DNA of 64,000 nucleotides from Bacteroidota bacterium (GTDB taxonomy: Bacteria > Bacteroidota > Bacteroidia > Bacteroidales > Prolixibacteraceae): assembly GCA_024278975.1 (NCBI GenBank), contig JAJRSD010000017.1, forward strand, positions 1 to 64,000, in the 5' to 3' direction. The notes below the pieces were generated by a model. That model saw nothing but the letters and a program-made list of their open reading frames with translations. It was not told where the DNA came from and did not search any database. Made by a program: the position numbers and the translations under genes. Positions 17,614 to 32,354 of the stretch are shown here, in pieces (position 1 is the first letter of the stretch; each line of letters starts with the position of its first letter).

Positions 17614-19038
17614 ATGACAAAACGAATAATAAATATCTCACTAATCCTCATTAGCCTGTTAGGATTTATATTCATTTTCTGGTGGTTGAACACCGATCCA
17701 ACCAACGAATTTGCAATTAGTTTGGAAGGTGCTGATAATCGGGGAGAAGGAAATACATTTATTCAGGATGTAAATATTGGCGAACATTTCGAGGAGTTTG
17801 CATCAGAATATAAAGAGTTAAACGAAACCTGGCCACGTTTCCGCGGTGCCGATTTCGATAATATCTCAAAATCGCCGGTTAAACTCATCGAAAAATTTGG
17901 AGCGGAAGGGCCGAAAATATTGTGGTCGCTTGAATTGGGTGAAGGCCACTCGGGGGCTGCCATTTACAAAGGTCTTTTCTATGTATTAGATTATAACGAA
18001 GAGGAAAGGGCTGACAAACTGCGCTGCTTTTCTTTGCTCGACGGAAAAGAACAGTGGAGCCGCGGCTACGATGTGGCAGTAAAACGCAACCACGGAATGT
18101 CGCGAACAATACCGGCAGTTACCGATAAATACATTGTAACAATTGGCCCGAAATGCCACGTAATGTGCCTCGACCGCACCTCCGGCGATTTCCGCTGGGG
18201 GCTCGACATAGTTAAAGAGTACCAGAACGAAATCCCTTTTTGGTACACGGGGCAGTGCCCGCTGGTTGATAACAACGTGGCCATTCTTGCCACCGGAGGC
18301 AGTGCATTAATTGTTGCAATGGATTGCAAAACCGGCGAGAAATTATGGGAAACACCAAATCCGAAAGGTTGGAAAATGTCGCACTCATCCATTATGCCGT
18401 TTACTTTTGCAGGTCGCAAAATGTACGTTTACAGTGCCATTGGAGGACTGGTTGGCGTGGCTGCCGACGGAGCAAATGCCGGAGAAATTCTTTGGGAAAC
18501 CTCGGCATGGAATCACTCGGTTGTTGCACCATCGCCGGTTTGCATGCCCGACGGAAAAATATTTATGACAGCAGGTTACGGTGCCGGAAGTATGATGTTG
18601 CAACTTACCGAAAACGGCGGAAAATTTACGATAGAACCAACCTTCGAATATAAACCAAAAGAGGGTTTGGCCTGCGAACAACAAACCGCCGTTTACTGGA
18701 ATGGCCACCTGTTCGGAATTCTTCCTAAGGATGGCGGGTCGCAGCGCAATCAGTTTGTCTGTGTTAATCCGGCCGATCCAACGAAAATTGTTTGGTCGAG
18801 CGGAAAAGAAGCACGTTTTGGACTGGGACCCTATTTTATTGCCGACAATAAATTTTTCATTCTGAACGATGACGGGACTTTAACAATTGCCCGCCCCGAC
18901 ACAAAAAAATACATTCAATTGGAACAGATAAAAATTTTCAAAAACGGCCACGATGCCTGGGCACCGTTTGCCATTGCCGATGGTTACATGATTTTACGCG
19001 ATTCGAAAACAATGGTTTGTATCGATTTAAATATTTAA
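17614..19038 (+). CDS. Membrane-anchored PQQ-like beta-propeller protein
   Basis: This 474-residue protein has one N-terminal transmembrane anchor (residues 5-26, IINISLILISLLGFIFIFWWL) and a spacer. The propeller begins near residue 72 (WPRFRGADFDNISKSP) and contains blades such as HVMCLDRTSGDFRWGLDIVK, IVAMDCKTGEKLWETP and PADPTKIVWSSGKE. Unlike the upstream tandem trio it is anchored rather than freely secreted, and its coding sequence looks visibly GC-richer than neighbouring AT-rich genes. It begins the redox-associated stretch. Twelve base pairs after its stop a DUF1016 gene starts, which separates it from the next propeller gene. The ligand is unknown. Confidence 0.8.
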   Translation: MTKRIINISLILISLLGFIFIFWWLNTDPTNEFAISLEGADNRGEGNTFIQDVNIGEHFEEFASEYKELNETWPRFRGADFDNISKSPVKLIEKFGAEGPKILWSLELGEGHSGAAIYKGLFYVLDYNEEERADKLRCFSLLDGKEQWSRGYDVAVKRNHGMSRTIPAVTDKYIVTIGPKCHVMCLDRTSGDFRWGLDIVKEYQNEIPFWYTGQCPLVDNNVAILATGGSALIVAMDCKTGEKLWETPNPKGWKMSHSSIMPFTFAGRKMYVYSAIGGLVGVAADGANAGEILWETSAWNHSVVAPSPVCMPDGKIFMTAGYGAGSMMLQLTENGGKFTIEPTFEYKPKEGLACEQQTAVYWNGHLFGILPKDGGSQRNQFVCVNPADPTKIVWSSGKEARFGLGPYFIADNKFFILNDDGTLTIARPDTKKYIQLEQIKIFKNGHDAWAPFAIADGYMILRDSKTMVCIDLNI

Positions 19039-19050
19039 GAGCTTGTTGAG

Positions 19051-20085
19051 ATGAAAACTAAAGAACTTATAGTATATGGTGAGGAGTTATTTCGTGGAGT
19101 TGCAACACTGATTTATAAGGCTAAATCAAAAGTTGCCATTTATTTAAACGCAGAAACAACTATCTTATACTGGAGTATTGGAGAGTTTTTATCGCTTGAG
19201 TTAAAACAAAAAAAATTACTTAACTATGGTAGTCAAATTCTTGCGACAGTGTCGCAAGAATTAACAAGACGATTTGGTAAAGGTTTCACTTACACTGCTT
19301 TAACAAGAATGATAAAGGTAGCCGAATCTTTCCGTCATGAAAATGTTGTGACACTGTCGCAATATTTGAGTTGGAGTCATTTTATCGAACTTTCAACTAT
19401 TAATAATGAAACAAAAAAGGAATTCTATTGTCTAATGTGCATTAACCAACAATGGGGTGTCAGGAAATTACGACATCAAATTAACAATATGTTGTTTGAA
19501 AGAACAGCAATTGCCGAACATCAGGAAGAAGAAATAAAAATAACTCTCGGTAATTTGGCTGAAAATAGACTTTTGCATCCTGATTTAGTTTTTAAAAATA
19601 CATATATACTTGATTTTATGAATTTGCCACAAGGGTATTCTGAAAAAGAGTTAGAGGATGAACTTGTAGCACACATCGAACAATTTATCATGGAATTGGG
19701 TACTGGATTTGCATTTATGGAAAGACAAAAGAAAATTCCGGTTGATAGTATAGATTATAGGTTAGACTTGCTTTTTTATCATCGAAAATTGAAACGTCTT
19801 GTTGCAATTGATTTAAAACTTGGAAAGTTTGAGCCAAAGCATAAAGCTCAGATGGAACTCTATCTTCGGTGGTTACAAAAACATGAAATGCAAGCAGGTG
19901 AGGAAAACCCAATTGGATTACTTTTGTGTAGCGAAGGGAATACTGAGCATATTGAATTATTATTGTTAGATGAGAAAGAAATTAAGGTCGCTCAGTTTTT
20001 GACGGAACTACCTAGTAAAGAGTGGTTTGCAAATAAACTACACAGAGCAATTGAAATTGCAGAATTACATAAAAGCGTAAAATAG
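19051..20085 (+). CDS. DUF1016 (YhcG-type) PD-(D/E)xK nuclease domain protein
   Basis: This 344-residue protein has the two DUF1016 parts. The N-terminal region (about 1-170) includes YGSQILATVSQELTRRFGKG, SWSHFIELSTI and FYCLMCINQQWGVRKLRHQI. The C-terminal nuclease-like domain (about 200-320) has the PD-(D/E)xK signature, with the Asp in YRLDLLFYHR and IDLK in LVAIDLKLGKFEPKH. These proteins are widespread in mobile and defence-associated regions and are predicted nucleases; their exact role is not established. Here it sits alone between two propeller genes, its TAG directly abutting the next ATG. It is AT-rich compared with the gene before it, which suggests insertion. Confidence 0.85.
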   Translation: MKTKELIVYGEELFRGVATLIYKAKSKVAIYLNAETTILYWSIGEFLSLELKQKKLLNYGSQILATVSQELTRRFGKGFTYTALTRMIKVAESFRHENVVTLSQYLSWSHFIELSTINNETKKEFYCLMCINQQWGVRKLRHQINNMLFERTAIAEHQEEEIKITLGNLAENRLLHPDLVFKNTYILDFMNLPQGYSEKELEDELVAHIEQFIMELGTGFAFMERQKKIPVDSIDYRLDLLFYHRKLKRLVAIDLKLGKFEPKHKAQMELYLRWLQKHEMQAGEENPIGLLLCSEGNTEHIELLLLDEKEIKVAQFLTELPSKEWFANKLHRAIEIAELHKSVK

Positions 20086-21045
20086 ATGAAAAACAAAGGA
20101 ATCATAATATTTTTAATAATCCTCGCGGTAGTAATTGTCGGGGTAGTTGTTGGTGATTTTATATCGAAACGTCCCGATAAAATGGATGCTAATATTTTTG
20201 AATACAACATTGATGAATTTAAAAATGTTGACAAGGATTTAATTCATTATAAAGAGACTAAAAACTTTAAAATTGGTTTTGAAAAACCTGCCGGAATTAC
20301 AATCGAAAATGATAAAATTTATTTAGTAGGCGACCAAGAACTAAAAGTAATTAATAGCTCAGGGAAATTAATAACAGAAGTTCTGTTAGCAGATAAACCA
20401 CATACAGTTGAGGTTGCCGGGGATAAAATTTACATCGCCTTCGAAAAGCAAATGCGGGTTTATAACGAAAAAGGCGAGCTGTTGAATGAATGGAAGTTAA
20501 CTAATCTCGATTCGTATATAACTGCAATTGCAGTGCACGATGATAATGTTTTTGTTGCCGATGCCGGAACCAGAAAAATCATACGCTTTTCGGTTGAGGG
20601 TGAAAAACTAAATGAGTTTGATGGTAAAGCTGATGAGGAAGGGGCATTTGGGTTTATTATTCCGAGTCCCTATTTCGATATTGATATTAATGAGTACGGC
20701 GATTTGTGGGTTGTAAACCCTGGGTTGCACGCCCTCGAAAACTATTCACCCGAAGGAAAACTTCGCGAATACTGGAAAAGCACCAGCATGAAAATTGAGG
20801 GGTTTAGCGGATGTTGCAATCCTGCACATTTTACCTTTTTACCAGATGGTAGTTTTATTACCAGCGAAAAAGGGTTGGTACGGATAAAAATTTATAAACC
20901 GTCAGGCGAGTTTTCGGGAGTGGTTGCCCCGCCTGCAAAATTTAAAAATGGCGAGCAGGCACCCGATGTAGCAGTCGATTCAGCGGGTAATGTTTATGCT
21001 CTCGATTTCGACAGAAAAGTATTGCGGGTATTTAAACTAAAATAG
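20086..21045 (+). CDS. Membrane-anchored six-bladed (NHL-type) beta-propeller protein
   Basis: An N-terminal transmembrane anchor (GIIIFLIILAVVIVGVVVGD, residues 4-23) precedes an NHL/SMP-30-like propeller with repeats of the kind GKLITEVLLADKPHTVEVAG, IRFSVEGEKLNEFDGKADEE and VAVDSAGNVYALDFDRK. Such propellers bind proteins or ligands and some are hydrolases; no catalytic set is evident. A FSGCCNPAHF segment near residue 243-252 carries a Cys-Cys pair. The start codon directly follows the stop of the DUF1016 gene. The gene was probably once next to the anchored PQQ-like propeller gene, and a joint role at the cell surface or in the periplasm is inferred. Confidence 0.75.
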   Translation: MKNKGIIIFLIILAVVIVGVVVGDFISKRPDKMDANIFEYNIDEFKNVDKDLIHYKETKNFKIGFEKPAGITIENDKIYLVGDQELKVINSSGKLITEVLLADKPHTVEVAGDKIYIAFEKQMRVYNEKGELLNEWKLTNLDSYITAIAVHDDNVFVADAGTRKIIRFSVEGEKLNEFDGKADEEGAFGFIIPSPYFDIDINEYGDLWVVNPGLHALENYSPEGKLREYWKSTSMKIEGFSGCCNPAHFTFLPDGSFITSEKGLVRIKIYKPSGEFSGVVAPPAKFKNGEQAPDVAVDSAGNVYALDFDRKVLRVFKLK

Positions 21046-21056
21046 AACTTTGAATC

Positions 21057-21141
21057 CTCTGTGGCTTATCCGTGCTTTCTGTGGTAAAATAAAAGAAATC
21101 TAACCACAGAGCTCACAGAGGTTTCCACAGAGTAACACAGA
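21057..21141. repeat. Dispersed repeat of the CACAGAG type
   Basis: Contains CTCTGTGG, then ACCACAGAGCTCACAGAGG, then CCACAGAGTAACACAGAG, so the same element appears in both orientations and can fold back on itself. It lies between the NHL-type gene and a small Cys-rich gene. Confidence 0.6.
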
Positions 21142-21148
21142 GAAAAAT

Positions 21149-21355
21149 ATGAATAGAAAAGAATTTTTAAAAACAACAGGCAGGCTTTTAATACTTGGTG
21201 GATTTACAGCCTCTGCCGGATATCTGATAGTCAATAAAAAGGTGACCGCGAGTTGCTCCGTTTCGCCAACTTGTAAAACTTGTAACAAAGTTTCGAATTG
21301 CGAAAATCCGAACGTAAAAGAGGTGAGGTATAAAGAAGAGACAAAAACTCCGTAG
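21149..21355 (+). CDS. Small exported Cys-rich protein, Tat-like leader
   Basis: This 68-residue protein begins MNRKEFLKTTGRLLILGG, which resembles a Tat leader with RK in place of the usual twin arginine. A hydrophobic segment follows, and then a short mature part has four cysteines in a C-x5-C-x2-C-x5-C arrangement (residues 36-51). The cysteines could hold a metal or Fe-S cluster, but the family is not recognised. It lies upstream of a Tat-type Fe-S protein and a NapH-like membrane Fe-S protein on the same strand, so a small electron carrier or maturation partner is a reasonable guess. Confidence 0.55.
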   Translation: MNRKEFLKTTGRLLILGGFTASAGYLIVNKKVTASCSVSPTCKTCNKVSNCENPNVKEVRYKEETKTP

Positions 21356-21374
21356 TAGTTGAATATGAATAACT

Positions 21375-21483
21375 CCGGGTTTTTCCAAAGGAATCCCTTC
21401 TGTCCAACCCGGGGAATAAAAAAGCGAAGCAAAACAAGGTGCATCCACGTCGGTTAAATTGAAAAACTGAAATCGCATGCACC
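21375..21483 (+). repeat. Two-hairpin dispersed repeat, copy 1
   Basis: First hairpin: CCGGGTT with AACCCGG, enclosing TTCC/GGAA. Second, 21438-21483: GGTGCATCCACGTCGG, ending in TGCACC. A second copy at 23580-23666 has GGCGCA/TGCGCC, a paired change in both arms. The two copies flank the gene pair 21509-23499 as direct repeats. Confidence 0.75.
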
Positions 21484-21508
21484 GCACAATAAAAAGACAA
21501 TAGAAGAG

Positions 21509-22087
21509 ATGGAGAAAAATAGTAAATCACAAAACAGACGGAAATTTATACAGAACGGCATTCGTATGTCGCTGTTACTCTCGTTGGGAACGGTAAGTGT
21601 AGCAGCACTTAAAAATGTTACAGGCGACGATTACGTTTGGCAAATCGACCCGTTTAAATGTACGCAGTGCGGGCGCTGTGCCACCGATTGTGTGATGACT
21701 CCCTCGGCGGTAAAATGCATTCATGCATTCGATTTGTGTGGATATTGCGATTTGTGTGGCGGCTATTTTAAACCCGATTCCAATTCGCTCAGTACGGCAG
21801 CCGAAAATCAGCTCTGCCCAACGGCGGCAATCGAACGACGATTTATCGAAGAGCCCTATTTCGAGTACCACATCGACGAGGATTTGTGCATTGGTTGTGC
21901 AAAATGTGTAGCGGGCTGCACCTCGTTCGGAAACGGATCTATGCACCTGCAGATTATCCACGATATTTGCCTGAATTGCAACGAATGTTCAATTGCCCGC
22001 GTTTGTCCGTCGGATGCCATTAGCCGGGTAAAAGCCAGCGAAGCCTACAAAGTAAAAGGCGATTTCTCAAATAAACCTAAAGCCTGA
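21509..22087 (+). CDS. Exported multi-[4Fe-4S] ferredoxin (NapG-like)
   Basis: This 192-residue protein has a Tat leader (QNRRKFIQNGIRMSLLLSLG) and several cysteine motifs: CTQCGRCATDC, CGYCDLCGG, CIGCAKCVAGC and CLNCNECSIARVC followed by PSDAI. The third and fourth are ferredoxin-like. The first, with its trailing cysteines, is less regular, so three to four [4Fe-4S] clusters are likely. The Tat signal implies folding and cluster loading in the cytoplasm before export, so it acts in the periplasm. The next gene, 8 bp downstream, encodes a membrane Fe-S protein; the pair resembles NapG-NapH. It probably carries electrons between the membrane and periplasmic partners, which may include the adjacent propellers. 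Confidence 0.82.
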   Translation: MEKNSKSQNRRKFIQNGIRMSLLLSLGTVSVAALKNVTGDDYVWQIDPFKCTQCGRCATDCVMTPSAVKCIHAFDLCGYCDLCGGYFKPDSNSLSTAAENQLCPTAAIERRFIEEPYFEYHIDEDLCIGCAKCVAGCTSFGNGSMHLQIIHDICLNCNECSIARVCPSDAISRVKASEAYKVKGDFSNKPKA

Positions 22088-22095
22088 TTAGAAGA

Positions 22096-23499
22096 ATGAG
22101 TACATTATCGAAAATAAGTTTTGAAGAAAGCTGTGAGCTACGAGTTACGGGAGGTGAATGCCAATCAATTGCCATCGGGCATAAACCTTCAACTTGTAAC
22201 CAGCATTCTGGAATACGAAACAAAAGTTTTCTCCCAACTAAAAAACTCAAATTTGTTTTTATTACTATCTACTTTTTACTTTTTACTTTTTACTTGTCTG
22301 CACAACAGCAACGTTTTCCAAAGCCTGAATTCGACACGGGTTACGAACAGCCAACGCCCATAACACCCGAACCTCGTGCTCTTGCGATGGAATATTTCGA
22401 TGTTTTGGTTCTGCTGCTGGTACTTTCGCTGGCCACCTATTTTGTGCTAAAAAGCCGTTCGCGTCAGAGTGTAATGTGGCTCTCAATATTTACGTTAATC
22501 TATTTTGGTTTTTACAGAAACGGGTGTATTTGCAGTATTGGTTCCATCCAGAATGTCGTTCTGACTTTCTTCGACCCGGAGTACGCAATTTCGATAACAA
22601 CTTTGCTGTTTTTCCTGTTGCCGCTTCTGTTTGCCCTCTTTTTCGGGCGCGTCTTCTGCGGGGGGGCTTGTCCGTTAGGAGCCATTCAGGATTTGGTGGT
22701 GGTAAAACCCATAAGTTTGCCCAAATGGCTGAATAAAACATTGGGACTGATACCCTATATTTATCTGGCGTTGGCCGTTCTTTTTGCTGCCACCGGCACC
22801 GATTTTATCATTTGCAGGTACGACCCGTTTGTGGGGATTTTTCGTATGGATGCTAAATTTCACATGGTGGTTCTCGGTATTGCTTTGTTATTGATGGGAA
22901 TGTTTGTATCGCGTCCATATTGCCGTTTTCTGTGTCCTTACGGAGTTTTGCTCAACTGGATGTCGCGGTTCTCAAAATGGCATTTAACAATTACGCCATC
23001 GGTTTGTATTCAGTGTAAACTCTGTTCCAACTCGTGCCCGTTTGATGCTATTGATTACCCAACCAACGAAAAAGAGGTGCTGAAATCGGGACTTGGCCCC
23101 AAACGTTTTCTTATTTATGCGGTGGTAATTCCGGTTTGGATTGCGGTGGGTATTTTTGCCGGTGCCAAATCACACACATTTCTATCGAAAGCAAACTCCA
23201 CAGTTTATCTTGCTGAGCTGTTGATTTCGCATCCCGAGCTCAAAAACGACCCCGATAATATTGACGTTCAAATGTTCCTTACTGCCGGAAAATCAATGCA
23301 AACACTGGTTGAAGAGGCGGAAGCAATACGCGAAGAATTTTATATTGGAAGTATGATTGCCGGAGGTTTTCTGGGATTGGTACTTGGAATGACCCTGCTG
23401 AATACTGTGGTGTTCCGACGACGACAGGATTACGAGCCGCACAAAGGAAATTGTTACAGTTGCGCACGTTGTATCGATTATTGCCCGGTTGAAAAGTGA
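22096..23499 (+). CDS. Polytopic membrane [4Fe-4S] protein, NapH/NosR-like
   Basis: This 467-residue protein has several transmembrane helices, paired CGGACPLG and CRFLCPYG motifs as in NapH/NosR/YccM-type proteins, a ferredoxin segment (CIQCKLCSNSCPFDAI) and a C-terminal CYSCARCIDYCP motif. This family passes electrons across or along the inner membrane, often to or from quinol. The first 50 or so residues are odd: they contain two 7-bp tandem arrays (22135-22148, 22271-22291), and the apparent signal segment FITIYFLLFTFYLSAQ is partly encoded by the second. The upstream ATG at 22096 is 9 bp after the previous stop, so the reading is accepted, but the N-terminus may be shaped by repeat insertion. 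Confidence 0.8.
   Translation: MSTLSKISFEESCELRVTGGECQSIAIGHKPSTCNQHSGIRNKSFLPTKKLKFVFITIYFLLFTFYLSAQQQRFPKPEFDTGYEQPTPITPEPRALAMEYFDVLVLLLVLSLATYFVLKSRSRQSVMWLSIFTLIYFGFYRNGCICSIGSIQNVVLTFFDPEYAISITTLLFFLLPLLFALFFGRVFCGGACPLGAIQDLVVVKPISLPKWLNKTLGLIPYIYLALAVLFAATGTDFIICRYDPFVGIFRMDAKFHMVVLGIALLLMGMFVSRPYCRFLCPYGVLLNWMSRFSKWHLTITPSVCIQCKLCSNSCPFDAIDYPTNEKEVLKSGLGPKRFLIYAVVIPVWIAVGIFAGAKSHTFLSKANSTVYLAELLISHPELKNDPDNIDVQMFLTAGKSMQTLVEEAEAIREEFYIGSMIAGGFLGLVLGMTLLNTVVFRRRQDYEPHKGNCYSCARCIDYCPVEK
22271..22291. repeat. 7-bp tandem repeat inside a coding region
   Basis: Three perfect ACTTTTT units lie within the putative signal segment of the NapH-like protein. Gain or loss of one unit would shift the reading frame. 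A shorter pair, GAGCTAC and GAGTTAC, lies upstream at 22135-22148 in the same gene. Confidence 0.7.
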
Positions 23500-23579: not shown

Positions 23580-23666
23580 CCCCCGGGTTTAACCGGGGGA
23601 TGCAAATAGAACAAAAAACAAGGCGCAGCCACGTCAGTCAAATTGAAACGGGTGGTTGCATGCGCC
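23580..23666 (+). repeat. Two-hairpin dispersed repeat, copy 2
   Basis: CCCCCGG/CCGGGGG hairpin with a 6-nt loop (23580-23599), then GGCGCAGCCACGTCAG at 23622, closing with TGCGCC at 23661-23666. The segment AACAAGG and the middle TCAAATTGAAA match copy 1 at 21375-21483. Confidence 0.75.
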
Positions 23667-23703: not shown

Positions 23704-25578
23704 ATGAATTACAACGATAAAATAAAGCTCTCCCAAAACATTATAATAGTTGCAGGAATATTCTGTATAACCGTGGCTATGCTACTGCTGCTCAACTTTT
23801 GGCAGGTCTCGAAAAACGACCCCATCGAAAGTAAAGTACTCGAAGCCCTCGTTGAAAGGCTAAAAGATGAGCCCAACAACGAAGAGTTGAAAGTGGAAAT
23901 CAGAAACTTCGATTTGCTGGCGCGGAAAGCCTATTTTAACAGCCAGTGGCAAGTGAAAACCGGAGCTTATCTGTTGCTTTTCGGAGCTATAATTCTTGCT
24001 TTTGCCCTCCATGTTTATTACACGGCGAAAAGCAAAATCGGGCAGCCCGATACGGTTCACGAAAATGAAATTATGGGACGTATTCTGGCGCAAAAAGGAA
24101 TTGTGATTGTGGGAGCTGTTGTTTTTCTTTTTGCCTTTATTGCATCGTTCGCAACCGTCAACCACCTCAACGATTACGACTTGCAGGCAGAAACGGAGAT
24201 GGAAGTAACGCCCGAAGACGAAGGGATTGAAGTAATAGAAGTTGGAGAAGTACCGCAACAAGTTCAGCAGCAAGAAGTAAAAAAGGAAGTTGCTGAACCG
24301 GGTGTTGAAGAGATAAATGTATCTAAAAAAACGGTTTCCAACGAAGTTCAGAAAGAGAATATTTCGGTGGAAGTTACAAAAGAGAAATCTACAGCAAAAC
24401 CTGTAATATCAACTTCAAATTTGACACTTGCCGACCTTCAAAAAAATCACAACTCTTTCCGTGGTCCTCTCGGGCAAGGAGTTATTTTTCATAAAAATAT
24501 ACCCACAAAATGGGACGGTGCAGCCGGAACAAATGTGTTGTGGAAATCGCCTATTCCTAAAAAGGGATACAATTCGCCGGTAATCTGGGGCGATAAAGTA
24601 TTTATTGCCGGAGGCGATAACACGGCGCGCGAGGTTTATTGTTACAACAGCAATAATGGCAAATTGCTTTGGACCGGAAAAGCGGATAATATTAAGGGAG
24701 CACCGGCAAAATTGCCGAATGTTACCGAAGATACGGGACTCTCGGCACCTACATTAACAACCGATGGAAAATGCGTTTTCGCCATTTTTGCCACTGGCGA
24801 TGTAATTGCTTTTGATATGAATGGAAAACGTGTTTGGGCGCGAAATCTCGGCGTTCCCGATAATCATTACGGGCACTCTTCATCGTTAATTACATGGGAT
24901 AATAAACTGTTTATTCAATACGACACTAACAAAGGAGGAAAAATTTTAGCACTGGATGTAGCCACAGGAGAAACGGTTTGGGAAACGGTTCGCAAATCAA
25001 AAATTTCATGGGCAAGTCCGGTATTAGCAAAAATAGATGGGAAATATCAACTTATATTAACTGCCGACCCGATTGTTGCCGGCTACGATATAAAAACCGG
25101 AAAGGAACTTTGGTCAACAGAATGTATGATGGGCGAAGTTGGTCCTTCGGTAGGTTTTAGCGATGGAGTTGTTTTTGCCGGAAATGAGTATGCAACTTTG
25201 GTAGCAATAAATCCGAACGATGGCTCAATTATCTGGGAAAACGATGAGTATTTACCCGAAGCTGCAAGTCCGCTGGCATACAAAGGATTGTTGATAATTG
25301 CCACCAGTTACGGCGTGTTGGTTTGTTACAATGCAAAAACCGGCGAACAATATTGGGAGCACGATGTGGGAACAACATTATACTCGTCGCCAGTTGTTGC
25401 CGACGGAAAACTTTTTATGATGGACAACGATGGAGTGATGCGGATTTATGAATTCGCAAAAGAGATGAAATTAATCAGCGAAAATGAACTGGGTGAAATT
25501 GCCGGAACTACACCCGCTTTTGCCGATGGAAGGATTTATATTCGTGGTGAAAAGAATTTATATTGTATTGGAAAATGA
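23704..25578 (+). CDS. PQQ-like beta-propeller fused to a three-helix membrane domain
   Basis: The ATG at 23704 (MNYNDKIKLSQN) is preferred; the longer TTG reading from 23656 overlaps the upstream repeat. Three transmembrane segments lie in the first 150 residues (IIIVAGIFCITVAMLLLL, GAYLLLFGAIILAFALHVYY, GIVIVGAVVFLFAFIASFA). A Glu/Val/Lys-rich linker of about 80 residues follows, then a propeller (SFRGPLGQGVIFHKNIPTKW, LALDVATGETVWETVRKSK, VAINPNDGSIIWENDEY). The membrane part resembles no family I can name. Same-strand placement after the NapGH-like pair suggests that it docks the propeller to the membrane Fe-S complex. Confidence 0.8.
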   Translation: MNYNDKIKLSQNIIIVAGIFCITVAMLLLLNFWQVSKNDPIESKVLEALVERLKDEPNNEELKVEIRNFDLLARKAYFNSQWQVKTGAYLLLFGAIILAFALHVYYTAKSKIGQPDTVHENEIMGRILAQKGIVIVGAVVFLFAFIASFATVNHLNDYDLQAETEMEVTPEDEGIEVIEVGEVPQQVQQQEVKKEVAEPGVEEINVSKKTVSNEVQKENISVEVTKEKSTAKPVISTSNLTLADLQKNHNSFRGPLGQGVIFHKNIPTKWDGAAGTNVLWKSPIPKKGYNSPVIWGDKVFIAGGDNTAREVYCYNSNNGKLLWTGKADNIKGAPAKLPNVTEDTGLSAPTLTTDGKCVFAIFATGDVIAFDMNGKRVWARNLGVPDNHYGHSSSLITWDNKLFIQYDTNKGGKILALDVATGETVWETVRKSKISWASPVLAKIDGKYQLILTADPIVAGYDIKTGKELWSTECMMGEVGPSVGFSDGVVFAGNEYATLVAINPNDGSIIWENDEYLPEAASPLAYKGLLIIATSYGVLVCYNAKTGEQYWEHDVGTTLYSSPVVADGKLFMMDNDGVMRIYEFAKEMKLISENELGEIAGTTPAFADGRIYIRGEKNLYCIGK

Positions 25579-25651: not shown

Positions 25652-26662
25652 ATGACTGAGAAGCTTCATAATTTAGAGATATATTTAAAACTCGTTGATA
25701 CAATTGGCAACACAATTGAAGAAGCGAGATTAAGAGCTGTGCGAGCAGTAAATAATGAATTAGTACAAGCCAATTGGGAAATCGGGAAATACATTGTTGA
25801 ATATGAACAGCATGGCAACGAGAAAGCAGAGTATGGTAGTTCGCTTTTAACAAATTTGTCAAAGGACTTGAAAACGAGATTCGGCAAGGGATTTAGTAAG
25901 AGTAATGTGTACCTGATGCGCCAGTTTTATATGAAATATCCAAAATTCCAGTTAGTGACTGGAAAATTGACATGGACTCATTATTCCGAATTATTAGGTG
26001 TTTCGAATGATAACGCACGAAGTTTTTATGAAAAGCAGGTAGCGAATGAAAATTGGAGTGTTCGGGAATTGAAAAGACAAATAAGTTCATCATTATTCGA
26101 ACGTATTGCGTTAAGTAAAGACAAAAAGGGTGTTCTTCAACTCTCAGAACAGGGGTTAATGGTAGAAGAGCCAAAAGATATAATAAAAGACCCGTATGTG
26201 CTGGAATTTCTCCAAATTCGAGAAGAACAAAGAATGAGTGAAAGTAAACTTGAACAAAAAATAATAGACAATCTCCAAACATTTTTACTCGAATTAGGCA
26301 AAGGCTTTTCGTTTGTAGGCAGACAATATAGAATTACATTAGCAAATGACCACTATTATGTCGATTTGGTTTTTTATCATCGAATACTAAAATGTTTTGT
26401 GTTAATTGATTTGAAAACGAGACACGTAAAGCATCAAGATATTGGTCAGATGAATATGTATCTCAATTATTTTAAAACTGAAGAAAGTATTGAAGATGAT
26501 AATTCTCCGATTGGAATTGTTTTAGGAGCTGATAAAAATGACATTCTTGTTGAATATGCGATTGGAGGAATATCAAACAATATATTTATTTCAAAATACC
26601 AACTTTATTTGCCTGATAAGAAAGTTCTTGAAAATAAAGTAAAAGAATTAATTGATGAGTAA
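25652..26662 (+). CDS. DUF1016 (YhcG-type) PD-(D/E)xK nuclease domain protein, second copy
   Basis: This 336-residue protein has the DUF1016 N-terminal region (YGSSLLTNLSKDLKTRFGKG, LTWTHYSELLGVSNDNARSF, WSVRELKRQISSSLFERIAL) and a C-terminal nuclease-like domain. The latter has Asp in YYVDLVFYHR and the IDLK motif in CFVLIDLKTRHVKHQDIGQM. It is clearly diverged from the copy at 19051, so this is not a recent local duplication. It is placed alone between a propeller gene and a small membrane protein gene of the redox stretch, in the same orientation, and is AT-rich. The role is uncertain; it is probably an accessory nuclease acquired by transfer. Confidence 0.85.
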   Translation: MTEKLHNLEIYLKLVDTIGNTIEEARLRAVRAVNNELVQANWEIGKYIVEYEQHGNEKAEYGSSLLTNLSKDLKTRFGKGFSKSNVYLMRQFYMKYPKFQLVTGKLTWTHYSELLGVSNDNARSFYEKQVANENWSVRELKRQISSSLFERIALSKDKKGVLQLSEQGLMVEEPKDIIKDPYVLEFLQIREEQRMSESKLEQKIIDNLQTFLLELGKGFSFVGRQYRITLANDHYYVDLVFYHRILKCFVLIDLKTRHVKHQDIGQMNMYLNYFKTEESIEDDNSPIGIVLGADKNDILVEYAIGGISNNIFISKYQLYLPDKKVLENKVKELIDE

Positions 26663-26873: not shown

Positions 26874-26875
26874 TT

Positions 26876-29218
26876 ATGACTGATAAATATAAAAATACAG
26901 ACCAAATAATTTCAGAAAAGGGCTCAACAAAAAAGAGCCTGATTCCCATTTTGCAGGCAATTCAAAAGGAGCATAACTATCTGCCCGATGATATTCTTAA
27001 ATATGTTGCTAAAAAAACATCAATCTCGGCAGCCGAAATAATTAGTGTTGCCAGTTTCTATTCGCAATTCAGGCTTGCACCGGTTGGCGAACATATCATA
27101 AAAATTTGTACCGGAACTGCTTGTCATGTAAAAGGTGCCGGGCAGGTTTACGATGCTTTTCGACGCGAATTTAAATTGCCCAATGGTATTGATACCGAAG
27201 AGTCGGGAACTTACACACTGGAAAAAGTTGCATGTTTGGGGTGCTGTACTTTAGCCCCGGTTGTTCAGATTGACGAAACAACTTACGGGCATGTTGCACC
27301 CGACCAGGTTGGGCAGGTTATCGAAGATTTCGAAAGCCAGACAGGAAAGAAAAGTTCGAAAAAAGCACGAAAAGCTGATGGCTCCGAAATTAAAGGCGAA
27401 ATAAGAATTGGGCTTGGTTCGTGTTGCGTGGCAAGTGGCAGCGAGGATATTAAAAATGAAGTTGAAAGTGTTGTCAACGAAAGCGGGTTGCGCGTAACCC
27501 TTAAACACGTTGGTTGCGTGGGAATGTGTCATCAGGTGCCATTGGTTGAAATTGTACCAAACGAAGGCGAGCCTATTTTATATGCAAAAGTAAAACCCGA
27601 GGATGTTAAAAACATTGTTGAAAATCATTTTGATGCTCCCGGACTTTTCACCAAAACAAAAAATAAACTGCTCAATTTGGCAGAAACCATTCAAACCGAT
27701 AGAAATTGGGATGGTGTTCAGCGTTATGAAATTAGTATGCGCGAAAAACCGGTGGCTTCATTTTTAGGGAAACAGGTTCCCATTGCCACTGAATATCGCG
27801 GAATAATTAACCCGGTTGATATAAATGAGTACATAAAACGAGGTGGTTTTACGGCAATGAAAAAAGTGCTGAAAACTATGTCGTCCGATGAAGTTATCGA
27901 TGAGGTGAAAAATAGTGGAATTCGGGGACGGGGAGGAGCAGGTTTCCCAACTGCCGTAAAATGGGGACTGGTTAAAAAGCAAAAAAGCGATGTAAAATAT
28001 ATAATTTGTAACGGAGATGAGGGAGACCCGGGCGCATTTATGGATCGCATGATTTTAGAGTCGTACCCATATCGTGTTATCGAAGGAATGGTGATTGCAG
28101 CTTTCGCCACAGGAATTCATCAGGGGTATTTTTACATTCGTGCTGAATATCCGCTTGCGGTAAAACGAATTAGAGAGGCGCTTAAAATTTGTAACGAGAA
28201 TAATTATCTCGGCGATAATATTTTGGGAACTTCTTTTAACCTCAATCTTCAGATTTACGAGGGTGCCGGAGCATTTGTTTGTGGAGAGGAAACTGCGCTA
28301 ATTAGTTCCATCGAAGGTAATCGCGGATATCCGCGTATTCGTCCGCCATTTCCGGCACAAAGTGGTTTATGGGGAAAACCAACACTGGTGAACAACACCG
28401 AAACATTAGCTCAGATATCATATATTTTACGCGAAGGTTCAGATAAATTTAAAAATATTGGTACCGAAAAAAGTACCGGCACAAAAGTTTTTGCACTTGC
28501 CGGAAAAATTGCCCGTGGCGGGTTAATTGAGGTGCCCATGGGAATAACAGTTAAACAAGTTGTTGAGGAGATTGGTGGCGGAATTGCAAACGGACGTAAA
28601 TTTAAAGCAGTACAAATTGGCGGGCCGTCCGGTGGTTGCATTCCTGCTGAATTTTCTGATACTCCAATCGATTTTGAGTCGCTCAGCGAAATGGGAGCAA
28701 TGATGGGCTCGGGTGGTTTAGTGGTACTCGACGATACCGATTGCATGGTCGATATTGCACGTTATTTCCTTTCGTTTACGCAGGAAGAGTCGTGTGGGAA
28801 ATGTACTTTTTGCCGGGTTGGAACAAAACGAATGTTAGATATTCTCAACAATATTACCACAGGAAAAGGTAAAAAAGGAGATATAGAGGAGCTGGAACAT
28901 CTCGCGGGCTGGACAAAAAAAGGAAGTCTGTGCGGACTGGGGAAAACCGCGCCAAATCCGGTGTTGAGTACTTTGAAATATTTTAGAGATGAATACGAAG
29001 CCCACATAAACGGAGTTTGCCCAACGGGAAAATGCACCGATTTAATTACTTACTCGGTAAACGATGAGTGCATTGGTTGCACCAAGTGTGTGCAAAAATG
29101 CCCGGTAGATGCGATACCGTTTACTCCGCACGAAAAACATTGGATTGATACAGAACTCTGCATAAAATGCGATGCCTGCCGAGTAGTTTGCCCGGTTGAT
29201 GCGATTGATGTTAAGTAG
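26876..29218 (+). CDS. NuoE-NuoF (HydC-HydB-like) fusion, NAD(P)H-oxidising Fe-S flavoprotein
   Basis: This 780-residue protein carries, in order: a NuoE/HydC domain (1-160; [2Fe-2S] ligands C78, C83, C120, C124); a thioredoxin-like [2Fe-2S] domain (172-275; CC183-184, C214, C218); a NuoF domain (about 290-690; GRGGAGFPTAVKWG at 351-364 for FMN/NADH, EESCGKCTFCRVG plus the SLCGLG cysteine for the N3 [4Fe-4S]); and two C-terminal [4Fe-4S] motifs (CIGCTKCVQKCP, CIKCDACRVVCP). This is the HydB plus HydC content of electron-bifurcating enzymes and of StnB/StnC, here on one chain. It would exchange electrons with NAD(H) in the cytoplasm. The 2Fe-2S/FAD protein at 29506 is the likely partner. Confidence 0.9.
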   Translation: MTDKYKNTDQIISEKGSTKKSLIPILQAIQKEHNYLPDDILKYVAKKTSISAAEIISVASFYSQFRLAPVGEHIIKICTGTACHVKGAGQVYDAFRREFKLPNGIDTEESGTYTLEKVACLGCCTLAPVVQIDETTYGHVAPDQVGQVIEDFESQTGKKSSKKARKADGSEIKGEIRIGLGSCCVASGSEDIKNEVESVVNESGLRVTLKHVGCVGMCHQVPLVEIVPNEGEPILYAKVKPEDVKNIVENHFDAPGLFTKTKNKLLNLAETIQTDRNWDGVQRYEISMREKPVASFLGKQVPIATEYRGIINPVDINEYIKRGGFTAMKKVLKTMSSDEVIDEVKNSGIRGRGGAGFPTAVKWGLVKKQKSDVKYIICNGDEGDPGAFMDRMILESYPYRVIEGMVIAAFATGIHQGYFYIRAEYPLAVKRIREALKICNENNYLGDNILGTSFNLNLQIYEGAGAFVCGEETALISSIEGNRGYPRIRPPFPAQSGLWGKPTLVNNTETLAQISYILREGSDKFKNIGTEKSTGTKVFALAGKIARGGLIEVPMGITVKQVVEEIGGGIANGRKFKAVQIGGPSGGCIPAEFSDTPIDFESLSEMGAMMGSGGLVVLDDTDCMVDIARYFLSFTQEESCGKCTFCRVGTKRMLDILNNITTGKGKKGDIEELEHLAGWTKKGSLCGLGKTAPNPVLSTLKYFRDEYEAHINGVCPTGKCTDLITYSVNDECIGCTKCVQKCPVDAIPFTPHEKHWIDTELCIKCDACRVVCPVDAIDVK

Positions 29219-29240
29219 GTTGCAGGTTGCATGTTGCAGG
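29218..29240. repeat. 7-bp tandem repeat (GGTTGCA) before the IVP-like gene
   Basis: GGTTGCA, GGTTGCA, TGTTGCA, then GG, starting inside the TAG stop of the NuoEF fusion. With the AACCTGY array at 29481-29494 it forms inverted flanks around the IVP-like gene. Confidence 0.7.
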
Positions 29241-29263
29241 ATAACAGGATAAAGACAAAAATA

Positions 29264-29482
29264 ATGAAAAATTATAGAGAATTGGAGGTGTATCAAATGG
29301 CGTACAGTCTGGCAATAAAAGTTCATAGAATGACTTTAACACTTCCAAAATATGAAATGTACGAACAAGGAAGTCAGGTTCGCAGGTCAACTAAAAGTAT
29401 AAAAGATAATATAGTTGAAGGTTATGGTAGAAAATTGAATAAGTTTATAGATTACGTAGAAAAACATTGGAATGAGAATTAA
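29264..29482 (+). CDS. Truncated four-helix bundle protein (23S rRNA IVP-like, S23 family)
   Basis: From the ATG at 29264 the protein has 72 residues: MKNYRELEVYQMAYSLAIKV, then the helix LPKYEMYEQGSQVRRSTKSI and IKDNIVEGYGR, all typical of the S23/four-helix bundle family. Family members are usually about 115-125 residues; this one stops after about 60 percent of the fold, ending FIDYVEKHWNEN, so helices 3-4 are missing. In some bacteria the family is encoded within 23S rRNA intervening sequences, and in others as solitary genes. It sits between two redox genes, flanked by inverted 7-bp repeats. It is probably a decayed mobile cassette. Confidence 0.7.
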   Translation: MKNYRELEVYQMAYSLAIKVHRMTLTLPKYEMYEQGSQVRRSTKSIKDNIVEGYGRKLNKFIDYVEKHWNEN

Positions 29483-29494
29483 CCTGTAACCTGC
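29481..29494. repeat. 7-bp tandem repeat (AACCTGY) after the IVP-like gene
   Basis: AACCTGT, AACCTGC, then AAC. The reverse complement, GTTGCAGGTTACAGG, matches the array at 29218 (GTTGCAGGTTGCA), giving inverted flanks. Confidence 0.65.
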
Positions 29495-29505
29495 AACTTT
29501 AAAAC

Positions 29506-31062
29506 ATGATTACATTAAAAATAAATAACAAACAAATCGAGGTCGAAGAGGGAACTTCAGTAATGAAAGCCGCGCAGCAAATGGGAGTTGAAATTCCAAA
29601 TATGTGCACACACAACGAACTGGAGCATTTTACTTCGTGTATGGTTTGTATGGTAAAAGACCAATCAAACGGAAAGCTTTTTCCGTCGTGTTCGGTTGAA
29701 GCAACCAATGGATTGGAAGTGGTAACCGATGATGACGAAATAAAAGAGTCGCGACAAACAGCACTCGAATTGTTACTTAGTGAGCATGTTGGCGATTGTG
29801 AAGCACCTTGTCAGATAGGTTGCCCGGCACACATGGATATCCCCAAAATGAATCGTTTGATTGCTGCCGGAAAATTTGATGAGGCGCTGAAAGTGGTAAA
29901 AAAGGATATTGCTTTACCCGCTGTTCTTGGGCGAATTTGTTCTGCCCCGTGCGAAAATGCTTGTCATCGCAAAACGGTTGACGAACCCATTTCTATCTGT
30001 CTTTTAAAACGTATTGTTGGCGATGATGGAAACACAGTAGATTTGAATTCGCCAAACCCGACAGGGAAAAAAGTTGTTGTAATTGGTGCCGGTCCTGCCG
30101 GATTGGCTGCGGCATATTATCTTCAAATAAAAGGAGTTCAGGTTACGCTGGTCGATAAAAATAAAAAAGCTGGTGGGTTGCTTCGTACCGCGATTGATGA
30201 TGAAATTCTGCCTAAAAATGTTCTCGATAAAGAGATCGACTTAATTGTAAAAACAGGGGTTGAATTTCGGGGAGGCGAGGAAATTAATACTGAGCTTTTT
30301 GAGTTGTTTAAAAATAAATTTGATGCAATAATTATTGCCACCGGAGCAATTTCAGAAAACCCCGAAATATTTGGATTGAAAGCAGGTCCAAAAGGAATTA
30401 TTGCCGATAGAAATACCTACGAAACTTCGGAAGAAAAAATATTTGCCATCGGAAATGTGTTGCGTTCATCGCGGATGGCGGTGCGTTCAGTAGGACAAGG
30501 AAAAGAGGTTGCGTTTTCGGTGATGCAATTTTTTAATAAGCAGGGAATAAAAGGCGATCCACGGATATTTAACTCGCGGTTTGGTAGGTTGGTGGCCGAC
30601 GAATTTGCAGAATATATTAAGGAATCGGTTGAGGGGCAACGTGTTTTACCGGAAAACGGTGGTTATTCAGGATTCTCGAAAGAGGAGGCAATTGCTGAAG
30701 CAAAACGTTGTTTGCACTGCGATTGCCGCGCCATCGACGAATGTAAATTGCGGGAATATTCCGACCAGTATAATGTAAATCAGCGACGGTTTAAAACCAG
30801 CCAACGCCGAAATATCACAAAGCAGATAAACCACGGCTCGGTAATTTACGAACCTCAAAAATGTATTCGGTGTGGAATTTGTGTTCGGCTCACCGAAAAA
30901 TATGGAGAGGAATTTGGATTTACTTATATTGGCAGAGGTTTTGATGTTGAAATTGGTATCCCGTTTGACGAAGAGCTGGAAAAAGGATTGACTAAAATTG
31001 CCGTAAAAGTTGCGGAGGGTTGTCCGACTGGTGCAATTTCTTTAAAAAAGAATAGGGAGTAA
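29506..31062 (+). CDS. 2Fe-2S/FAD/[4Fe-4S] oxidoreductase, GltD/NfnB/StnA-like but without the NAD(P) domain
   Basis: This 518-residue protein begins with a NuoG/HydA-type [2Fe-2S] domain (C34, C45, C48, C62). A Cys-rich [4Fe-4S] region as in GltD/NfnB follows (C98, C102, C106, C145, C149, C153). An FAD Rossmann motif VVVIGAGPAGLAAAYYL (GxGxxG 194-199) leads to IIATG at 276-280. Only about 20 residues separate IIATG from the closing FAD segment (DRNTYETSEEKIFAIGN, 301-317), where GltD-type enzymes carry a full NAD(P)-binding domain. The C-terminus has C402-C413 and a CIRCGIC...CPTGAI motif. It probably receives electrons from the NuoEF-like fusion and passes them to ferredoxin or a membrane partner. 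Confidence 0.82.
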   Translation: MITLKINNKQIEVEEGTSVMKAAQQMGVEIPNMCTHNELEHFTSCMVCMVKDQSNGKLFPSCSVEATNGLEVVTDDDEIKESRQTALELLLSEHVGDCEAPCQIGCPAHMDIPKMNRLIAAGKFDEALKVVKKDIALPAVLGRICSAPCENACHRKTVDEPISICLLKRIVGDDGNTVDLNSPNPTGKKVVVIGAGPAGLAAAYYLQIKGVQVTLVDKNKKAGGLLRTAIDDEILPKNVLDKEIDLIVKTGVEFRGGEEINTELFELFKNKFDAIIIATGAISENPEIFGLKAGPKGIIADRNTYETSEEKIFAIGNVLRSSRMAVRSVGQGKEVAFSVMQFFNKQGIKGDPRIFNSRFGRLVADEFAEYIKESVEGQRVLPENGGYSGFSKEEAIAEAKRCLHCDCRAIDECKLREYSDQYNVNQRRFKTSQRRNITKQINHGSVIYEPQKCIRCGICVRLTEKYGEEFGFTYIGRGFDVEIGIPFDEELEKGLTKIAVKVAEGCPTGAISLKKNRE

Positions 31063-31069
31063 TTAATTA

Positions 31070-31230
31070 CCCTTTCGGCTTCGCCACTTTCCCTTAAAAA
31101 GGGAAAGACGTTCTAAAATAATGAATAGTATAATTTGTAACATGTACAATCGTTGATTTGAACGTTTTCCCCTCGTGAGGGGAAATGTCGATAACTTGTC
31201 CCGATTTTATCGGGAGACAAAGGGGTAAAA
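31070..31230. repeat. Palindromic repeat, family 2 (CCCCTC type)
   Basis: Three hairpins: TTTCCCTT/AAGGGAAA, TTTCCCCTC/GAGGGGAAA with a 2-nt loop, and CCCGAT/ATCGGG. Then CAAAGGGGTAAAAG. The same element is found inverted at 46527-46690. It fills the gap before a propeller gene and crosses the longer in-frame reading of that gene. Confidence 0.75.
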
Positions 31231-31241
31231 GAAACAATTAT

Positions 31242-32354
31242 ATGAAAAAAATAATATATACAATATTATCAATCTGGCTAACATTCAATATAAATGCCCA
31301 GCCGAAGGATTCGTGGCCAATTTTCCGTGGCGACCAAAATCTAACCGGTGTTTCGAAAACCAAAATTCCAACTTCCCCAAAATTATTATGGACTTTTGAA
31401 ACTGCCGATAATATTAAATCGGCACCTGTTGTTGCCAATGGAAAAGTTGTAATTGGCTCAACCGATGGCGTAGTTTATTGTCTCGATTTTAAGGGTAAAC
31501 TACTTTGGAAATTCGACACCGGAAATACAATTGAAGCCCCGGCACTCATCGTAAATGGTACAGTTTATATTGGTAATTTAGACGGAATGTTATATGCACT
31601 TGATTTAAACTCGGGCGATAAAAAATGGGAATACGAATGTGAAAATCAAATTATTGGCTCGGCAAACTGGTGGACTGAAAATGGCACAACCTATATTTTT
31701 GTGGGGAGTTACGATTATTACCTGCACTGTGTGGATGCTAAAACTGGTAGCTTGAAATGGAAATACGAATCGGATAATTTTATTAACGGAGCCGCCGCCT
31801 GCGAAAACGGAACTGCAATGTTTGGTGGTTGCGATGGTTTTTTGCATTTGGTTGATATTGCCACCGGAAAGTTGGTAAAGAAAATTGATGTGGCTACATA
31901 CGTGGCAGGGTCGATTACAGTTGAAGGAAACAAAGCGTATATCGGCGATTACGATGGTCGCTTTTTTCAGGTTGATATTACAACCGACAAGACTTCGTGG
32001 GTTTGGGAAGATAAAAATACAAAACTGCAATTTATAGCCTCGCCGGTACTTCTGGGAAATAAAGTGTTAACTGCCAATTATAATAAATATCTTTACTGTT
32101 TCGACAAAAACACAGGCGAAAAATTATGGGAATACAATACGGGAAAACATGTGGAAGCATCGCCGGTGATAGTAAACGATAAAGTAATTGTTGCAAATAT
32201 GCGCGGCGATTTGGCAATGGTAAACCTTTCTGATGGCAAACTTGTTTGGAGTTACGAGATTGGGGGGCAGATTATCAGCAATCCAGCCGTTGCCAGCGGA
32301 AAAATATTTGTAGGGGCTTACGATGGAAACGTTTATTGTTTTGGAGAAAATTAG
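31242..32354 (+). CDS. Exported PQQ-like beta-propeller protein
   Basis: The ATG at 31242 gives a standard signal peptide (MKKIIYTILSIWLTFNINAQ); the 31185 reading runs through a dispersed repeat and is rejected. The mature propeller of about 350 residues has very regular blades: VYCLDFKGKLLWKFDTG, LYALDLNSGDKKWEYECENQ, LHCVDAKTGSLKWKYESDN, FLHLVDIATGKLVKKIDV, LYCFDKNTGEKLWEYNTGK. This makes it the most canonical propeller of the window. It follows the 2Fe-2S/FAD gene on the same strand and precedes a glycosyltransferase gene. It has no heme or Fe-S motif, so it would be a protein-interaction or substrate-binding partner. Confidence 0.83.
   Translation: MKKIIYTILSIWLTFNINAQPKDSWPIFRGDQNLTGVSKTKIPTSPKLLWTFETADNIKSAPVVANGKVVIGSTDGVVYCLDFKGKLLWKFDTGNTIEAPALIVNGTVYIGNLDGMLYALDLNSGDKKWEYECENQIIGSANWWTENGTTYIFVGSYDYYLHCVDAKTGSLKWKYESDNFINGAAACENGTAMFGGCDGFLHLVDIATGKLVKKIDVATYVAGSITVEGNKAYIGDYDGRFFQVDITTDKTSWVWEDKNTKLQFIASPVLLGNKVLTANYNKYLYCFDKNTGEKLWEYNTGKHVEASPVIVNDKVIVANMRGDLAMVNLSDGKLVWSYEIGGQIISNPAVASGKIFVGAYDGNVYCFGEN

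Follow-up and report, generated by a model that had tools for sequence, protein, structure and literature searches.

A recurrent gene cluster of Bacteroidota encoding a predicted Bfu-type core alongside NapH-like and periplasmic propeller proteins

The first 64,000 nucleotides of contig JAJRSD010000017.1, from a Bacteroidota bacterium of the family Prolixibacteraceae (assembly GCA_024278975.1; genome of 4.65 Mb), form the window analyzed here, and its forward strand carries a gene cluster (13489-38523) in which iron-sulfur (Fe-S) and flavin proteins stand among beta-propellers. Three exported propellers resembling pyrroloquinoline quinone (PQQ) proteins open the cluster: PQQa1, of a variable-copy family (13489-14712; PF13360, 5e-28), PQQa2 (14766-16004; PF13360, 1e-19) and PQQa3 (16199-17443; PF13360, 2e-28). 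They are followed by PQQ1, a propeller with an N-terminal membrane anchor (17614-19038; PF13360, 4e-22), an NHL-type propeller, likewise with an N-terminal anchor (20086-21045), a small Cys-rich exported protein of 68 aa (21149-21355), a periplasmic ferredoxin of the twin-arginine translocation (Tat) type (21509-22087), a NapH/NosR-like membrane Fe-S protein whose conserved part begins at about 22255 (22096-23499; PF12801, 2.5e-15), and PQQ2, a propeller preceded by three hydrophobic segments (23704-25578; PF13360, 2e-35; frame open from a TTG at 23656). Downstream lie a NuoE-NuoF fusion (26876-29218), a flavin adenine dinucleotide (FAD) protein (29506-31062), the exported propeller PQQ3 (31185-32354; PF13570, 7e-68), a GT4-type glycosyltransferase recognized by Pfam scan (32516-33817), the ATPase of an ATP-binding cassette (ABC) transporter (34052-34744; PF00005, 1e-33) and an FtsX/MacB-type ABC permease of 1103 aa (35212-38523; PF02687, 3e-20). 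The original prediction had placed a redox locus in about 15 kb of this region. All the parts it named are real and lie on the forward strand where it had put them, as judged by Pfam and sequence scans of the window; its extent was too small, as the three exported propellers at the 5' side (13489-17443) and the glycosyltransferase, ABC ATPase and permease at the 3' side (32516-38523) belong to the same unit.

Two sets of relatives were used to follow this linkage. The NapH-like protein, searched in 149 genomes of the order, gave 48 matches at E 1e-10, comprising a strong set of 25 genomes including its own (E no higher than 2.5e-70; identity of 40-68% outside its own genome) and a weak set of 23 genomes (identity of 36% or less); loci were fetched from all 24 other strong genomes and from 3 of the 23 weak ones. 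A scan of genome contigs with the ferredoxin alignment yielded at least 498 relatives among 586 stretches. The best 80 of these were used, and they are titled as Bacteroidota taxa and, once, as Chlorobiota; named ones with 79-91% identity belong to Draconibacterium, Maribellus, Mariniphaga and further Prolixibacteraceae. Presence was counted by running the window proteins in tblastn against 104 loci, 100 of them distinct after four duplicates had been dropped. Given that loci were chosen by NapH or ferredoxin matches, these two genes are partly present by construction. The denominator for each gene is the number of loci that hold it or have set room for it, a rule that slightly favors presence and leaves breaks within short loci (for example L043, L044 and L048 in our numbering) uncounted. 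The rows of the conservation alignments cited below exclude frames that are short, lack a stop or have low identity, as well as identical copies.

With few exceptions, the cluster recurs across the 100 distinct Bacteroidota loci. Same-strand presence was 75/80 for PQQa, 85/88 for PQQ1, 94/94 for the NHL propeller and 64/94 for the small Cys-rich protein in the upstream half; 98/98 for NapH, 89/90 for PQQ2, 80/83 for NuoEF and 64/66 for the FAD protein in the middle; and 55/56 for PQQ3, 44/44 for the glycosyltransferase, 25/26 for the ABC ATPase and 9/10 for the FtsX-type permease downstream. In the strong genomes the usual order, up to contig limits, is PQQa, PQQ1, NHL, small Cys-rich protein, ferredoxin, NapH, PQQ2, NuoEF, FAD protein, PQQ3, glycosyltransferase, ABC ATPase and FtsX, and the best 80 of at least 498 ferredoxin relatives keep the cluster with minor losses and one scrambled locus (L128). 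The earlier proposal hinged on these genes staying together in related genomes, and the linkage seen in the relatives favors it. Departures comprise about 10 kb free of cluster genes after NapH (L033), PQQa directly before NapH with PQQ1, NHL and ferredoxin missing (L043), no cluster genes shown past PQQ2 (L044, L046), the lack of upstream PQQ1 and PQQa (L038, L046), FAD and PQQ3 genes on the opposite strand (L053), PQQ3 without an adjoining glycosyltransferase gene (L048, L051) and a divergent ABC ATPase gene lying upstream (L108). The three weak NapH relatives (L055-L057) have the NapH-like gene only, plus a ferredoxin-type match in L056, and lack the cluster; further inspection of two of them gave no clue. 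In a draw of 395 genomes from the phylum, with at most eight candidates scored per genome, the ferredoxin was found at E 1e-30 only in its own genome, which indicates that only some lineages have the system. Plasmids gave no ferredoxin match at E 1e-15.

The NuoE-NuoF protein reads as a fused Bfu-type core of the HydBC/StnAB kind and not as respiratory NuoEF. The Bfu family is defined by the domain set of BfuB and BfuC, and a His ligand at B2 is missing from non-bifurcating homologues (Schut et al., 2022, PMC9304861, available part). In A. mobile the B2 ligands are C438, C476, H525, C531 and C536, with Thr replacing C476 in roughly two thirds of the BfuB proteins (same part of PMC9304861). An offset of 185, used in place of a direct alignment, carries C438, C476 and H525 to C623, Thr661 and H710, and an offset of 184 carries C531 and C536 to C715 and C720, after a one-residue gap visible in the StnB alignment. 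C623, H710, C715 and C720 are invariant (69/69 rows); position 661 has Thr in 38 rows and Cys in 21 (59/69 together), with other residues in the remaining 10, the window protein having T661. Also kept in all 69 rows are the eight C-terminal 4Fe-4S Cys of the ferredoxin side, and the four B1 Cys (C640, C643, C646 and C686), which we assigned from the ligand positions of NuoF, are complete in the window protein and in 64 of the 69. The protein scores above the cut-offs of PF01512, PF10589, PF01257 and Fer4, with SLBB at 25.5 bits just below its cut-off of 27, and we take these Pfam families to correspond to the InterPro domains of the Bfu definition. Pfam and NCBIfam scans show a NuoE-like part with C78, C83, C120 and C124, a mid-protein thioredoxin-like domain, a NuoF-like part for flavin mononucleotide (FMN) and NADH, and two C-terminal 4Fe-4S motifs. 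In the thioredoxin-like domain, C183, C184, C214 and C218 are kept in 69/69 rows, the first two being adjacent, and the StnB alignment holds equivalents for C214, C218 and one of C183/C184. The best match in the PDB is 8oh5_B (StnB; 702 bits), followed by 9bov_B, 9n5u_B (NfnB), 7t2r_B and 7q4v_B (HydB), and such StnB/HydB-type matches rank above formate dehydrogenase and complex I subunits; 8OH5 is the Stn structure of Sporomusa ovata (PMC10482914, available part). A complex I fragment was rejected, given the B2 His and the ferredoxin-side clusters and the absence of other Nuo genes from the cluster in Pfam scans.

By its alignment, the FAD protein is a subunit of the StnC (BfuA) type in which the NADP site is gone. 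PF13510 and PF14691 score above their cut-offs and PF22117 reaches 27.3 against 27; the protein combines 2Fe-2S and GltD-type Fe-S parts with a FAD Rossmann fold and C-terminal Fe-S motifs. Residues 2-283 align to 9bov_A 4-289 and residues 272-511 to 9bov_A 426-671. The intervening stretch of 9bov_A (290-425), with the second Rossmann motif, has no counterpart, and the NADP-binding domain is therefore absent, which led us to reject a transhydrogenase. The FdhF-like part is missing too, the protein having 518 aa compared to 1172-1178 for StnC. Arg239 of 9bov_A aligns with Ile234, and Arg occupies this column in 4 of the 61 rows, within a gappy stretch. The R239 numbering is likely common to 9bov_A and S. 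ovata StnC, and mutation of R239 lowers the activity of Stn (PMC10482914, available part). The FAD-binding glycines are kept in 58/61 rows and the flavin domain is gone in three rows (L048, L050 and L051), which, together with L136, have also lost the Lys aligning near StnC K170. On a quick tree the flavin domain was lost at least twice, with the warning that the rows concerned form the longest branches. All 61 rows, including those without the flavin domain, keep 18 Fe-S Cys and H94. Given that the NADP domain is absent, the flavin Arg mostly lost and the flavin domain sometimes gone, the third substrate is presumably not NADP(H). In the simplest reading, electrons would pass via the Fe-S clusters of this protein, with NADP(H) and, in some lineages, FAD being dispensable.

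These two proteins also bear on whether the core bifurcates at all. The B1 site without one Cys ligand in 5/69 rows, the odd set of B5 ligands and the eroding flavin part of the BfuA-type protein would suit a non-bifurcating NADH or ferredoxin dehydrogenase, in which the Bfu-like core is a plain electron entry module to the periplasm. However, the B2 His, which non-bifurcating homologues lack (PMC9304861, available part), and the ferredoxin-side Cys are invariant in 69/69 rows, and we consider this explanation quite unlikely.

On the membrane and periplasmic side, the NapH-like protein has two CxxCxxCxxxC motifs and seven more invariant Cys (15 Cys in 91/91 rows); it reaches 38-40 bits with the NCBIfam NapH models (cut-offs 213-234) and 48.8 with NosR (cut-off 1000). 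The 16 Cys of the Tat ferredoxin, arranged in four groups, are kept in 98/98 rows and would hold four [4Fe-4S] clusters. Four Cys of the small 68-aa protein (C36, C42, C45 and C51) are found in 68/68 rows, and in L045 and L047 the ferredoxin contains an internal stretch with the same Cys spacing, which ties the small protein to the ferredoxin. Among the propellers, the NHL protein carries a vicinal pair, C243-C244, in 92/92 rows, PQQ1 has invariant R158, N159, H160, Q214, C215, H257 and R401 (83/83 rows), and in PQQ2 (83 rows in the conservation alignment) the three N-terminal hydrophobic segments are followed by a charged, Pro-containing linker. The AlphaFold model of PQQ1 has a predicted local distance difference test score (pLDDT) of 91.6 and a helix at 3-27, and falls below 50 at 44-48 and at 159-161, the latter within the invariant RNHG stretch. 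Among the 50 Foldseek matches listed, at 11-16% identity, the nearest fold is BamB by E-value and tetrathionate hydrolase by query-normalised TM-score (0.56-0.62); quinoprotein dehydrogenases are also near.

What these proteins carry besides Fe-S clusters was addressed by motif and family scans. The heme motif CXXCH was absent from the core families except in 2 of 98 NapH frames, and a multiheme conduit was rejected on this ground. A quinoprotein was rejected because no PqqE above cut-off was found in the host genome, the sole match (31 bits vs 381) being the radical S-adenosylmethionine (SAM) gene of a terpenoid locus described below; PQQ1, PQQ2 and PQQ3 score below the cut-offs of quinoprotein dehydrogenase families. 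Pfam scans of the window cluster proteins, with the 68-aa protein outside the scan and the neighbors in relatives scanned in part, revealed no FMN-binding domain. Taken together, the chain would depend mostly on Fe-S clusters. A hydrogenase or formate dehydrogenase was rejected as well, its catalytic domain being absent from the Pfam matches of the cluster. That the locus has neither a terminal enzyme nor a heme protein, as first proposed, was borne out for the scanned neighbors and, but for the two NapH frames, for the heme motif: among 12 representatives scanned of 43 recurrent neighbor families (at least two loci each) we found no terminal enzyme, these being regulators, an esterase, transporters, hitchhikers and toroids.

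The BamB-like fold of PQQ1 and the absence of redox domains from the glycosyltransferase, ABC and FtsX proteins in Pfam scans would also fit two co-located units, one being a Bfu enzyme and the other a unit for envelope assembly or glycosylation made up of the propellers, the glycosyltransferase and the ABC/FtsX proteins. Such a division is very doubtful, however, as almost every locus has propeller and Fe-S genes interleaved in a fixed order on a single strand.

The cluster as a whole probably encodes a membrane-attached bifurcating or confurcating dehydrogenase of the Bfu type, which would connect the NAD(H) and ferredoxin pools of the cytoplasm with the periplasm by electron exchange. In the complex we envisage, the BfuCB fusion would bind NAD(H) and ferredoxin, with electrons merged or split at one FMN, and the BfuA/StnC-like protein would relay electrons via its Fe-S clusters, near -400 mV, to the NapH-like protein. 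This potential is our estimate, about midway between the values of -280 mV for NADH and -500 mV for ferredoxin (PMC9304861, available part). Through the NapH-like protein, electrons would cross the membrane and reach both the Tat ferredoxin and the small protein with four Cys. At the periplasmic face, PQQ1, NHL and PQQ2, the anchored propellers, may scaffold or catalyze a reaction. A chain from cytoplasmic NAD(H) to periplasmic Fe-S proteins and propellers, the core of the original prediction, remains the best reading, with two of its members reassigned: NuoEF as a ferredoxin-using Bfu-type core and the FAD protein as a StnC-like subunit without the NADP site.

Several observations count against this proposal. 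The BfuA-type and NapH-like proteins are coupled by gene linkage alone, we found no biochemistry for any member of the cluster, and we infer both the direction of flow and the role of the propellers. NuoEF is missing from its expected place in L033, L046 and L128, the FAD and PQQ3 genes of L053 lie on the other strand, and NapH of L043 has no ferredoxin beside it. In one clade (L034, L036, L117, L120 and L125; 5/69 rows) the third B1 Cys, C646, is replaced by Gly, which would weaken the path from FMN to BfuA in these relatives, and the unusual Cys spacing in the thioredoxin-like domain makes the B5 cluster unsure. The model of the NapH-like protein has a pLDDT of 75.3, falling below 50 at 402-405 and 407-414 in the C-terminal Cys region, and a structure search with it returned no match to a solved structure at E 0.001.

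Within the Bfu-type dehydrogenase reading, outward flow, with NADH and reduced ferredoxin as donors and electrons of very low potential delivered outside, seems about twice as likely as inward flow. The inward variant, which takes its share of the confidence given to the reading as a whole and is by itself unlikely, would start with the oxidation of a donor of low potential, such as a sugar aldehyde, by periplasmic propeller enzymes; the electrons would then be bifurcated to NAD+ and ferredoxin by the Bfu core. Bfu enzymes have been described as reversible (PMC9304861, available part). PQQ1 is dense in invariant polar residues and resembles BamB, tetrathionate hydrolase and quinoprotein dehydrogenases in fold, and a related propeller (48320-49597) stands among sulfatases and a GH43 enzyme. 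However, PqqE above cut-off, a heme motif or a known redox cofactor for the propellers was not found in the scans described above, and inward electron transfer works against the membrane potential.

The cluster is a variant of the Bfu family with a new type of partner. Its closest counterpart is StnABC, the Sporomusa-type bifurcating transhydrogenase (PMC10482914, available part; PDB 8OH5), in which the BfuCB fusion corresponds to StnA plus StnB and the FAD protein to StnC in its 2Fe-2S, GltD-type Fe-S and FAD parts. Unlike in StnABC, the equivalents of StnA and StnB form one fused protein here, and genes for membrane and periplasmic proteins are linked to it; the StnC equivalent is devoid of both the NADP domain and the FdhF-like part and has mostly lost the flavin Arg. 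With the extracytosolic modules of the NapGH/NosR/NapH-like kind (PMC8238504, available part), the cluster has in common a multi-transmembrane Fe-S protein with PF12801 and a Tat-type ferredoxin with four cluster motifs. The available part of PMC8238504 describes NapH-like modules accompanied by FMN-binding partners and does not mention propellers; here, an NADH/ferredoxin module is linked, rather than only a quinol donor, and the FMN-binding domain was not found in our Pfam scans. Bifurcating HydABC hydrogenases share the HydBC-type core, while neither an H-cluster domain nor NiFe subunits appeared in the Pfam scans of the cluster, and respiratory complex I differs in its other Nuo subunits, which these scans did not find in the cluster. 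PQQ dehydrogenases, BamB and tetrathionate hydrolase share the fold of PQQ1, which differs from them by its low identity (11-16% in the 50 matches listed), its N-terminal anchor and the linked Fe-S genes. We take the Tat ferredoxin to resemble NapG, and we know of no name for the whole system.

A literature search of open-licence papers found none on this gene combination and brought up the papers on Bfu, Stn and flavinylation. The third substrates described for Bfu enzymes are found in the cytoplasm or in membrane complexes of the hydrogenase or complex I type (PMC9304861, available part); searching the text of PMC9304861 for the words propeller, fusion and periplasm gave no hit, and the available part of PMC11406978 mentions neither NapH nor propellers. 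If the proposal is true, a Bfu core acting across the membrane would show heme-free delivery of reductants of near-ferredoxin potential to the outside. The stepwise erosion of BfuA, first of the NADP domain and then of the flavin domain, provides a natural series on the entry point of the third substrate.

The best clue to the periplasmic substrate comes from a co-occurring terpenoid locus, a hint that a redox process of the envelope may await description. A squalene-hopene-cyclase-like gene lies directly upstream of PQQa1 in L063, L073, L077 and the distant L051, and the cyclase copies checked have the DxDD motif. In the order, the cyclase occurs in 7 of the 149 genomes, i.e. in 7/25 with the cluster and 0/124 without it (hypergeometric p 1.7e-6, uncorrected for kinship and for the choice of the gene, which was noticed while viewing recurrent neighbors). 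The radical SAM protein of the locus was found in 16/149 genomes at E 1e-30; its seven best matches (<1e-120, at least 50% identity) come from the same seven cyclase genomes, and the other nine have 36% identity or less. The phylum draw gave the cyclase in 1/395 genomes, its own. Among 48 further cluster-bearing genomes (48 of the 80 ferredoxin-scan loci), 27 have the cyclase; two of the 48 duplicate genomes of the first set, both without cyclase, which gives a total of 34/71 cluster-bearing genomes.

In the genome studied here, the terpenoid locus lies on another contig (G000:C90, L154:9579-15740, reverse strand) and encodes a 4Fe-4S protein, a radical SAM protein, a fusion of DUF116 and a polyprenyl synthase, a small toroid and a cyclase-like toroid with DxDD. 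Its genes adjoin the cluster in six loci. In L159 (G137), synthase, toroid and cyclase genes precede two PQQa-like genes and a frame interpreted as the start of PQQ1, and PQQ3 is followed by the 4Fe-4S and radical SAM genes in L135. The original prediction, made from the window alone, could not have included this linked locus. Given that about half of the cluster-bearing genomes are without the pathway, it is the pathway that seems to depend on the cluster, and not vice versa; many of these genomes are incomplete drafts. A specific and, in our judgment, unlikely scenario is a membrane-spanning bifurcating enzyme whose periplasmic third substrate is part of a new terpenoid process in the envelope: the pathway would make a cyclic terpenoid, the glycosyltransferase and ABC/FtsX proteins would glycosylate and export the terpenoid or its carrier, and for the Bfu-NapH-ferredoxin-propeller chain the terpenoid would be either a substrate to reduce or a lipid carrier of electrons outside the membrane. 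Its co-occurrence with terpene cyclase and radical SAM genes makes an otherwise orphan cluster amenable to lipid analysis in cultured strains of Draconibacterium, Maribellus or Sunxiuqinia.

Four further genes on the forward strand within the cluster are probably insertions outside the system: two YhcG/DUF1016 nucleases (19051-20085 and 25652-26662; PF06250), a small protein of the 23S rRNA IVP type (29231-29482; PF05635, 1e-14) and a Polbeta nucleotidyltransferase (34811-35125; PF18765, 2e-11). YhcG matches occur in 3 of the 80 ferredoxin-scan loci (L097, L102 and L124) and in none of the loci from the order genomes, and the IVP family is present in six other loci. Some relatives have ORF6N, IVP or YhcG genes at the joints of the cluster. 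A GxDLY/GDSL esterase gene stands between the NuoEF and FAD genes in L066, L070, L086, L090 and L091, and a LytTR response regulator with a histidine kinase lies within the propeller part of L060, L061, L062, L071, L072, L084 and L090; the latter pair is likely a local regulator of the cluster. In the glycosyltransferase, an N-terminal CxxC (C16, C19), unusual among GT4 enzymes, is invariant (13/13 rows).

In the host genome, PF03116, PF00346 and PF00115 are matched twice each, both PF00346 matches being on other contigs, and there is a separate HydBC-like locus. With these Rnf/Nqr-, complex I- and oxidase-type genes at hand, the cluster would be an added route rather than the sole NADH oxidizer. 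PF03116 (Rnf/Nqr) is uninformative, occurring in 136/149 genomes of the order and in 22/25 with the cluster. At G000:C10:41395-43098, NuoF- and NuoE-like matches are interrupted by in-frame TAA stops, perhaps a decayed paralogue.

Elsewhere in the window, the PQQ-like propeller at 48320-49597 lies within a reverse-strand group of sulfatases and a GH43 enzyme (46831-52261), and on this basis PQQ-like propellers may serve the use of sulfated glycans. A defence system was rejected: of seven window proteins scanned, PADLOC matches only YhcG and an unrelated reverse-strand helicase (40511-44317). The latter carries an MTES_1575 nuclease domain and matches the PADLOC candidate PDC-S37.

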